Made by a program: the position numbers and the translations under genes
The notes under the pieces: generated by a model
Database searches by the model: none
What the model was told of the DNA's origin: nothing
Seen by the model: only the letters and a program-made list of their open reading frames with translations
In this document: positions 7,184-9,756 of the stretch, one piece after another
How the letters are laid out: each line of letters starts with the position of its first letter
Position numbering within the stretch: the first letter of the stretch is position 1
Source: an uncultured Opitutia bacterium
GTDB taxonomy: Bacteria > Verrucomicrobiota > Verrucomicrobiia > Opitutales > Opitutaceae
Assembly (NCBI GenBank): GCA_903896015.1
Contig: CAITWF010000117.1
Span: forward strand, 1 to 64,000
Reading direction: 5' to 3'
Length of the DNA: 64,000 nt

Positions 7184-8050
7184 ATGCCTATTCATTCATT
7201 TCGTCCGCTCACGCCGTCCGGCCGCTTCACCTCCCTCAACATGGAGGAGGGTCTCTCGAAGGAACGCCCGCAGCGAGCGCTCACCACGAACAAGCACAAG
7301 AGCGGTGGTCGCAACGTCTATGGCCGCGTCACGACGCGCCATCGCGGCGGCGGGCACAAGCAGCTCTATCGCATCATCGACTTCAAGCGTTCGGTGCTCG
7401 ACATGCCCGCCAAAGTGCAGGCGATCGAATACGATCCCAACCGCTCGGCGAACATCGCGCTTATCTCCTACACCAACGGCGAGAAGACCTACATCATCGC
7501 GCCGAAGGGCCTGAAGCCTGGCACGATGATCTTCGCGTCGAACAAGGCGACGACGAACGATTTCAACGTGGGCAACAACTTCCCGCTCGCGATCATCCCG
7601 CCGTCGACGCGAGTTCACTGCGTTGAACTGGTACCTGGTCGCGGCGCCAAGATCGCCCGCGGCGCCGGCACGAGCCTCGAACTCGTCGCGATCGAAGGCT
7701 TGGTCGCTACGCTCAAGATGCCGTCCGGCGAACTTCGCCGCGTGCACGCCAACTGCCGCGCCACCATCGGTGAAGTCGGCAACGGCGATCATAACCAGCA
7801 GTCGCTCGGCAAGGCCGGTCGCAAGCGCTGGCTCGGCATCCGCCCGACCGTTCGCGGTATGGCGATGAATCCCGTCGATCACCCCAACGGGGGTGGTCAG
7901 GGCAAATCCAAGGGTGGTGGCGGTCGCCAACATCTCGTCTCGCCGTGGGGCCAGCTCGCCAAGGGCTTCGTCACGCGCCGCCGTTCGAAGCAGTCGAACT
8001 CGCAAATCATCACCCACCACAACGGCCGCAAGCCGCGTGGCCAAAAGTAA
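7184..8050 (+). CDS. rplB: 50S ribosomal protein L2
   Basis: L2 bridges the subunits and is needed for peptidyl-transferase activity. Its 288 residues include NVYGRVTTRHRGGGHKQLYR, the GRGAKIARGAGTS RNA-binding stretch, and HPNGGGQGKS, whose His is the conserved residue near the catalytic centre. The basic C-terminus is complete. A GGAG motif precedes the start. It lies in the standard order between rplW and rpsS. Confidence 0.98.
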   Translation: MPIHSFRPLTPSGRFTSLNMEEGLSKERPQRALTTNKHKSGGRNVYGRVTTRHRGGGHKQLYRIIDFKRSVLDMPAKVQAIEYDPNRSANIALISYTNGEKTYIIAPKGLKPGTMIFASNKATTNDFNVGNNFPLAIIPPSTRVHCVELVPGRGAKIARGAGTSLELVAIEGLVATLKMPSGELRRVHANCRATIGEVGNGDHNQQSLGKAGRKRWLGIRPTVRGMAMNPVDHPNGGGQGKSKGGGGRQHLVSPWGQLAKGFVTRRRSKQSNSQIITHHNGRKPRGQK

Positions 8051-8068
8051 CCCGGTCTTTTTCGCACC

Positions 8069-8344
8069 ATGGCACGTTCCATCAAAAAAGGTTTCTTCGT
8101 TGACTACCACCTGCTCGAGAAAATTGAGAAGGCGGTCAAGTCCGGCGCCAAGAAGCCCATCCAGACCTGGTCCCGCCGCTCGACGATCACGCCCGATTTT
8201 ATCGGCCACACGTTCAGCGTGCACAACGGCAAGATCTTCACCGCCGTTTACGTTACCGAGAATATGGTCGGCCACAAGCTCGGCGAATTCGCGCCGACGC
8301 GCACCTTCAAGGCGCACGGTGGCATGACCCGCAAGGAAATCTAA
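8069..8344 (+). CDS. rpsS: 30S ribosomal protein S19
   Basis: S19 pairs with S13 in the head of the small subunit. The 91 residues are a full-length family member: [44 protein letters not shown] and [10 protein letters not shown] are conserved stretches. Normally rplV follows at once. Here an unrelated exported protein gene of 327 bases begins 23 bases later. No Shine-Dalgarno motif is present. Confidence 0.98.
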
Positions 8345-8367
8345 GTTCATTCCGCCGCCTCACTCCG

Positions 8368-8694
8368 ATGCTCCGTCGTCACCTCCAGTCCTGCCTGCTC
8401 GCGCTCGTCGCCGCCACGCCGTTTACGGCGCGGGCTGCGAACGCGTCTGCGGCGCTCGAGGTCGCTGCGGTGCAGCCGACGCTCGTCGCGGATCTCGTTT
8501 TGCTCGGTCACGGCTTCGATGCCGGTCTCCGTCAGGGCATGGTCTGTCGCGTGACCCGGGGTAGCGCCGACGTCGCCGAGATTCTTCTCGTCGACGTCCG
8601 CCCGACGTGCAGCGCCGCGCTCATCACGAGCCTCGCGCTGCACCAGTCGATCCACGCCGGCGATGTCGCGGCCATCAAGATTCTTAAAACCTAA
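8368..8694 (+). CDS. Small exported protein of unknown function inside the S10 operon
   Basis: The 108 residues begin with a clear signal peptide (MLRRHLQSCLLALVAATPF, then a TARA-like cleavage site). The mature part of about 85 residues alternates Val/Leu strands with GxDxGLRQGM and AEILLVDVRPTCSAALI. This resembles the small beta domains at the ends of FlgT-like and other exported proteins in Verrucomicrobia and Planctomycetes (a pattern match, not a search). It lies between rpsS and rplV on the same strand, with 23 bases before it, so it is almost certainly co-transcribed with ribosomal genes. Its codon use looks like its neighbours'. The function is unknown. Confidence 0.75.
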   Translation: MLRRHLQSCLLALVAATPFTARAANASAALEVAAVQPTLVADLVLLGHGFDAGLRQGMVCRVTRGSADVAEILLVDVRPTCSAALITSLALHQSIHAGDVAAIKILKT

Positions 8695-8772
8695 CTCACA
8701 GAAAAAACCAAAAGGGTAGGGCGTCTCACCGCGCTGCTATCGCCGATGAAAATCGGAATCATCACGATCACC

Positions 8773-9114
8773 ATGGAAGTTCAAGCCCTCACTCGTTACG
8801 CGAGAATGTCGCCCAAAAAGATGCGCGATATTTCCCGCATCATCCAAGGCCGCAAGGCCGTGGAAGCCGTCGACTACCTCGCGCTTATCCCGCGCAAGTC
8901 GGCGAAGCTGATCGCGAAGACGCTCAAGAGCGCGATCGCGAACGCGGAAAACAACAACAACCTTTCCGCCGACAGCCTCATCGTGAAGCTCGCGCTCATC
9001 GAGATGGGACCGGTGCTGAAACGCTTTAAAGCTGGCGCCCGCGGCACCGCGATGCCCCGCCGCAAGAAGATGTCGCACATCCGCATCGTCCTCTCCGACG
9101 GCCAATCCAACTAA
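8773..9114 (+). CDS. rplV: 50S ribosomal protein L22
   Basis: L22 contributes the narrow constriction of the peptide tunnel. The start at MEVQALTRYARMSPKKMR agrees with the family and gives 113 residues. The frame is open to an ATG at 8746, but the nine extra residues (MKIGIITIT) do not belong to L22. Conserved features include the helix ARMSPKKMRDISRIIQGR and the tunnel loop, ending PRRKKMSHIRIVLSD. No Shine-Dalgarno motif is seen. Nine bases separate it from rpsC. Confidence 0.97.
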   Translation: MEVQALTRYARMSPKKMRDISRIIQGRKAVEAVDYLALIPRKSAKLIAKTLKSAIANAENNNNLSADSLIVKLALIEMGPVLKRFKAGARGTAMPRRKKMSHIRIVLSDGQSN

Positions 9115-9123
9115 TCTACTTCC

Positions 9124-9756
9124 ATGGGCCAAAAAACCAATCCCACAGGCTTTCGTCTCGCCGTCCGTCGCAACTGGCAGTCCCGCTGGTATGCGAGCAA
9201 GAAGGAATTTCCGAAGCTCCTCGCCGAGGATCAACTCATCCGCTCCAAGCTGATGGAGAAGCTCAAGCAGGCGTCGGTGCCGCGCATCTTCATTGAGCGC
9301 GCGTCGAACCGCGTCCGCGTCAAGATCTACACCGCCCGCCCAGGCATCGTCATTGGCCGCAAGGGCCAGGAAATCGAGAAGATCAAGGAAGAGCTCGCGA
9401 AGCTCACCGGTAAGGAAATCCTCCTCGATATTCAGGAAGTGAAGAAGCCCGAGATCGAGGCCGCGCTCGTGGCCGAGAACGTCGCGCTGCAGCTGGAGCG
9501 CCGCATCGCGTTCCGCCGCGCCATGAAGAAGGCCGTCGAAATGGCGATGGCGCTCGGCGCCGAAGGCATCCGCATTCAGTGCTCCGGCCGCCTCGGTGGC
9601 GCGGACATCGCCCGCCGCGAGTGGCAGCGCAAGGGCCGCGTGCCGTTGCACACCCTCCGTGAAAATATCGACTACGGTTTCGCGGAAGCGCTTACCGTTT
9701 ACGGCAAGATCGGCGTCAAGTGCTGGATCTGCAAAAAAGAGTCCGACAACAACTGA
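9124..9756 (+). CDS. rpsC: 30S ribosomal protein S3
   Basis: S3 forms part of the mRNA entry channel. The N-terminal [14 protein letters not shown], the KH RNA-binding domain with its [11 protein letters not shown] loop (about residues 76-87), and the C-terminal [25 protein letters not shown] are all present. At 210 residues it is slightly shorter than enterobacterial S3, and it ends soon after GVKCWI. The order rplV-rpsC-rplP is standard. Confidence 0.98.

Follow-up and report, generated by a model that had tools for sequence, protein, structure and literature searches.

Few gene orders in bacteria are as conserved as that of the S10 operon. In the window, by which we mean the whole 64,000-nt stretch of DNA analyzed here from an uncultured Opitutia bacterium of the Opitutaceae (Verrucomicrobiota), a small non-ribosomal gene lies between rpsS and rplV. 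This raises the question of whether this gene, here called gene X, is real, how widely it keeps this place and what it might do there. A reading of the letters alone (the sequence-only reading) had placed a 108-residue ORF on the strand of rpsS, 23 bases 3′ of it and before rplV, and these coordinates are confirmed (Table 1). Gene X starts with ATG, encodes 108 residues after a gap of 23 nt from the rpsS stop, and rplV is next. The rplV start kept among relatives is the ATG of the MEVQA sequence at 8773; a further ATG lies upstream in the same ORF at 8746.

Table 1. Features at the rpsS–rplV junction of the window
Feature	Position	Strand	Basis
rpsS (S19), 5′ neighbor of gene X	8069..8344, including stop	+	NCBIfam TIGR01050, E 9.9e-41
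Gene X, short form of a phylum-wide family, predicted exported small β-domain protein	8368..8694	+	ORF and homologs
Signal peptide-like N-terminus, about residues 1–23, A-x-A at its end	8368..8436	+	Rule of thumb; low pLDDT at residues 17–26
Conserved C-terminal β domain, about residues 30–107, like the FlgT C-terminal and MreC β domains	8455..8688	+	Model, fold comparison and alignments
Covarying two-hairpin RNA element, 5′ of rplV	8707..8763	+	48-sequence alignment and model search
rplV (L22), 3′ neighbor of gene X	8773..9114	+	NCBIfam TIGR01044, E 8.2e-29; conserved start in relatives

Sequence comparison confirms that gene X is a real, conserved gene, and the earlier observation was right and even understated. 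Homologs in 24 aligned relatives are 81 down to 42% identical to the window protein, and nine residues (D42, G49, L54, R55, G57, M58, R64, G98 and D99) are invariant in 34 X sequences. The dN/dS ratio of the mature part is 0.06–0.37 in nine of ten pairs, the tenth being saturated, and that of the first 25 codons is 0.21–1.12 in the same nine pairs. The low ratios in the mature part, together with the nine invariant residues, indicate that the protein itself, beyond the DNA, is under selection.

Occurrence of gene X and its linkage to rplV

In the window, gene X sits between rpsS and rplV, and so it does in all 29 relatives' loci taken from the family search. The sequence-only reading had named absence from all close relatives, together with no translation signal, as a finding that would speak against it; the gene is present in these loci and far beyond the family. 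In the family sample of 150 genomes, 95 give a match at E ≤ 0.1, many of them paralogs or noise, and 35 a match at E < 1e-13. Loci from records with names, a set that overlaps the family-search set, carry X between both flanks in 33 of 34 cases, and the remaining locus is cut by a contig end. Many of these records bear Opitutaceae or Opitutae in their titles, and one belongs to the cultured Geminisphaera colitermitum TAV2 (L061).

Of 286 class genomes searched with a profile, 131 match at E ≤ 1e-4, some by paralogs, and all 53 order and class hits that were fetched lie between rpsS and rplV. By our start rule, most X starts are no more than 50 nt from the rpsS stop; the gene ends close to rplV. 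Elsewhere in the order, 21 loci of other families encode short forms of 110–135 residues, except one (L085) with 185 residues. This variant (L085:1210-1764, plus strand) carries additional N-terminal sequence that sets it apart from its relatives in the order. Outside the order, the 32 class loci examined encode a long form of 187–293 residues (starts chosen by rule), in which a signal peptide is followed by a coiled coil and then by the same C-terminal domain as in the window protein. Judged from these sequences, the window's order keeps mainly the C-terminal domain of X. In other classes the lengths of the homologs vary more. Among 20 hits fetched there, 14 lie in the rpsS–rplV gap and five directly before rplV without rpsS; the twentieth (L197) consists of tandem paralogs away from ribosomal genes.

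The sequence-only reading had called for a survey of the rpsS–rplV region across the phylum. Of the 135 phylum genomes in our census, 130 have an rpsS match, 132 an rplV match and 129 both. The two genes are neighbors in 84 of the 129, with more than 250 nt between their Pfam matches in 46 and less in 38. An X homolog occupies 43 of the 46 wide gaps, as read from the coordinates of the X match against those of the rpsS and rplV matches, and none is found in the other three (G002, G173 and G482). In the other 45 of the 129 genomes, rpsS and rplV lie at separate places, so that many lineages outside the class have an S10 cluster interrupted at this junction.

The genomes in which rplV is not beside rpsS number 48 (the 45 with the genes apart and three in which only rplV was found). 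Up to 1.7 kb before rplV was examined in each, two of the stretches (L215 and L242) starting at a contig end. X is found directly before rplV in 30 of them (profile E ≤ 7.4e-5) and is missing in 18. Four of the 30 (G481, G489, G460 and G486) are in the profile training set and were first found with a class-level profile made from long forms only. Since so many of the parted loci keep X before rplV, its linkage to rplV outlasts that to rpsS. The survey thus places X at rplV in 73 of the 132 phylum genomes with rplV, 43 in the gap and 30 before rplV alone.

X is missing at rplV in the other 59 of these 132 genomes. Within the window's family we also picked 30 genomes whose best match, if any, was no better than about 1e-5; rpsS could be found in 29, and X is absent from all 29, with 8–194 nt between rpsS and the start of the rplV match. 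One genome of the order (G269) has a 53-nt rpsS–rplV gap without X. On a quick tree of L2, S19, L22 and S3, the presence and absence of X needs six changes, at least three of them forced by well-supported branches. Because the order rows of this tree were chosen as X carriers and no root was inferred, gain and loss cannot be told apart from it alone. Loss is the simpler reading because the position of X is shared across classes. The several apparent losses show that X is dispensable in the window's family. Given the absences in family and phylum, these bacteria do not generally need any coupling that X may provide.

These absences fit a historical passenger, that is, a modest envelope protein that entered the operon early, is workable anywhere and is merely tolerated where it is. 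The widely varying length and coiled coil of X, and a codon usage below that of the ribosomal proteins (see below), agree with such a history. However, each of the 131 matched class genomes has a single match at E ≤ 1e-4, and those followed up are at rplV, except the paralogs; moreover, X stays with rplV in many families after rpsS has separated. We consider the passenger reading possible but rather doubtful.

X also has relatives at other places. One, encoded on contig C113 of the window's own genome, is a 259-residue homolog (L002:1492-2271, minus strand; profile E 1.4e-14) with a hydrophobic N-terminal stretch, a coiled coil and the same C-terminal domain. Its neighbors are, as we take them to be, rsmI and pgi, and similar proteins are present in relatives (L128-L131). 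The tandem paralogs of the other class (L197:665-3395, plus strand) are two coiled-coil proteins with the X domain, with no ribosomal match in 4.5 kb. Weak family-search matches of 650–800 residues were set aside; as far as they were inspected, they do not carry the domain. In two of these loci (L132 and L133), whose translations read as long enzyme-like proteins, the profile gives no match at E 1e-3.

Signal peptide-like start, domain and predicted fold

The N-terminus of the X protein, MLRRHLQSCLLALVAATPFTARA, is signal peptide-like, as the sequence-only reading had proposed. It contains arginines, a 14-residue hydrophobic run and an A-x-A site at residue 23. All three features are present in 123 of 140 collected homolog entries, as counted with a simple rule of our own rather than SignalP, the entries including duplicates from overlapping genome collections. 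The proposal of a small β domain in the mature part also holds in the predicted structure. The AlphaFold model has a mean pLDDT of 83.5, with block values of 94–97 for residues 31–100, 82 for residues 101–108 and below 60 before residue 31. The domain includes the stretch GLRQGMVCRVTRG.

Among solved chains, the model most resembles the C-terminal domain of FlgT (8z5n, Z 11.5, rmsd 2.2 over 83; then 3w1e, Z 10.8, rmsd 2.0 over 76). β-Barrels of rotary ATPases come next (Z about 10.3), and MreC 7eft scores Z 9.8 with an rmsd of 3.4 over 79. The best Foldseek E-value is 3.4e-3. The folds at the top of this ranking belong to envelope proteins, in favor of an envelope role for X, but because the rotary ATPase barrels score near FlgT, the resemblance in fold is no proof of such a role. 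The window protein has no Pfam or NCBIfam match at E up to 10, and a short-form profile finds no PDB sequence within the same limit. With a long-form profile, 48 PDB sequences score at E up to 1; the best has 0.023, most are coiled coils, and these matches were set aside.

The fold resemblance invites the reading that X is a true homolog of FlgT or MreC, with a part in the flagellum or in cell shape. The FlgT C-terminal domain (PF16538) is a small β-barrel of an exported protein, as is predicted for X, and the two share local similarity around a G-x-x-x-G-M motif. Pfam FlgT_C appears at E < 0.1 in 11 of 29 long forms. The best score is 23.8 bits, so no X member tested reaches the gathering cut-off of 27 bits, and there is no match in the window protein (E up to 10) or in 25 short forms (E up to 1). 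Unlike FlgT, X shows no FlgT N-terminal or middle domain, and its long form has a coiled coil. Flagellin is found in six of 32 X-carrying genomes, including the window's own (five matches), whereas 26 of the 32 are without a match, which disfavors a flagellar role.

MreC (PF04085) resembles the long form in its export or anchor, its coiled coil and its C-terminal β domain. The NCBIfam MreC model matches six of the 29 long forms weakly (best 7.7e-6); models of SMC and other coiled-coil proteins match as well. In contrast, PF04085 has no match in the window protein, 25 short forms or ten longer proteins (E 0.05); for the 29 long forms, the Pfam matches listed cover 25 of 67 families. Three X-carrying genomes of one genus (G209, G227 and G239) are without MreC, as would suit a replacement, but the other 29 of 32 carriers have an ordinary MreC as a separate gene elsewhere, which disfavors replacement by X. 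Overall, true FlgT or MreC homology is very improbable.

The RNA element before rplV

In the window's family, a pattern in the spacer ahead of rplV is conserved and folds into a putative RNA element. The 48 aligned sequences contain two hairpins with 15 pairs, 10 of which show changes on both sides. This alignment (A5) leaves out a near copy (L009), a sequence with a wrong boundary (L017) and one with a long insertion (L141). Of the cells, 94.5% pair, a value that none of 500 shuffles reaches, and partners slid against each other pair at 34–60%; because the structure was derived from the alignment on which the pairs were counted, the comparison with slid partners leans in its favor. When four single sequences are folded alone, their shuffle z-scores are -1.0 to -3.0, so it is the covariation that carries the case for the element.

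The window has a single model match, between X and rplV, that ends 9 nt before the rplV start. Across the family, the model gives one match each in 35 of 61 genomes. In 28 of 30 loci the element lies just before rplV, and in the other two, which are cut by contig ends, just after X. Of the family loci, 21 fell outside the first search expression; 17 of these were re-searched with the model, which found the element in seven, and four (L048, L053, L056 and L061) were left out. X is detected in 14 of the 30 loci that carry the element. A second set of 40 family loci has the element in 25, and the 15 without it are all also without X. The element therefore occurs with and without X and does not depend on it. 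Outside the family it is found in none of 91 loci (best match E 0.26), and a search of Rfam gives no match.

From its position and covariation, the element may be a regulator of rplV. It resembles ribosomal-protein leader RNAs in being a covarying structure just 5′ of a ribosomal protein gene. It differs from them in having no Rfam match, in lying inside the operon and in being confined to the family among the loci searched. If it does regulate rplV, a ribosomal operon would be controlled from within, and the element is a new candidate for such control that can be put to the test. Mimicry of 23S rRNA was considered and set aside: the 23S region of one relative (G004) gives chance-level matches only, and 23S rRNA was not found in the window's draft assembly or in two of four relatives checked.

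Expression and possible role

The sequence-only reading held that X must share the ribosomal transcript, unless a promoter and a terminator isolate it. In a consensus scan of 7900–9300, no promoter-like site is found on either strand, and one terminator-like site is found, on the minus strand, where 1.7 are expected by chance. Since the scan shows no isolating promoter or terminator, co-transcription of X with the ribosomal genes is likely. The codon adaptation of X is 0.575, compared with 0.595 for secY and 0.616–0.774 for the ribosomal protein genes, which are favored because the same window genes serve as the reference. Four of 21 other long ORFs in the window score as high as X. Such codon usage would fit moderate expression. 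A Shine-Dalgarno-like sequence is missing in 20 of 28 cluster genes by our own rule, so little can be read from the lack of one before X.

Non-ribosomal guests of the S10-spc-alpha cluster are familiar, and secY and map in the window are examples. Those are general housekeeping genes in common positions. X differs from them in being lineage-restricted as far as surveyed, predicted to be exported, and placed at the rpsS–rplV junction. That position suggests a possible link between ribosome making and cell envelope building, and the fact that a predicted exported, non-ribosomal protein is held at one S10 junction across families and classes, and precedes rplV even after rpsS has parted from it, points to a ribosome–envelope tie that may be regulatory or physiological.

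To the reading of X as an envelope scaffold expressed together with the ribosomal proteins we give about an even chance. X would be exported by its signal peptide, the coiled coil of the long form would serve oligomerization, and the terminal small β domain would dock on another envelope component. Reading from the S10 ribosomal protein transcript would make the supply of X follow ribosome synthesis and hence growth rate. Export, co-transcription, growth-linked supply and docking are what we infer for X from its architecture, predicted fold and place.

The closeness of X to both the rpsS stop and rplV could also reflect control in cis. Here translation of X and its co-translational export would tune the translation of rplV, so that L22 supply would depend on the state of secretion, as with SecM, which is encoded before secA. 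The exported appearance of X is in line with this, and so is its place directly before rplV in 30 of the 48 genomes where rpsS is elsewhere or not found. However, purifying selection covers the entire β domain, no common C-terminal arrest motif is seen by eye in the alignments (endings ILKT, TLKV and VDARQ), and in the family X and rplV have the RNA element between them, which also persists in loci without X. We consider such control unlikely.

A wider version makes X the sensor arm of a phylum-wide envelope–ribosome feedback, in which its translation and export would set the output of L22 and of the genes downstream, and the RNA element would have replaced or supplemented this control in the window's family. 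X would then follow rplV even without rpsS because its translation and export would control rplV, and its loss in the family would be possible because the RNA element took over or supplemented the control. This version, too, has a slim chance of being correct.

As a conserved scaffold candidate at rplV, X is a clear target for deletion, localization and expression work. Searches of the open-access PMC literature, judged by titles and the starts of abstracts, showed nothing on gene X or the RNA element. One article (PMC12283558), whose abstract also reports targeted mutagenesis, describes a transposon essentiality screen in Verrucomicrobium spinosum.
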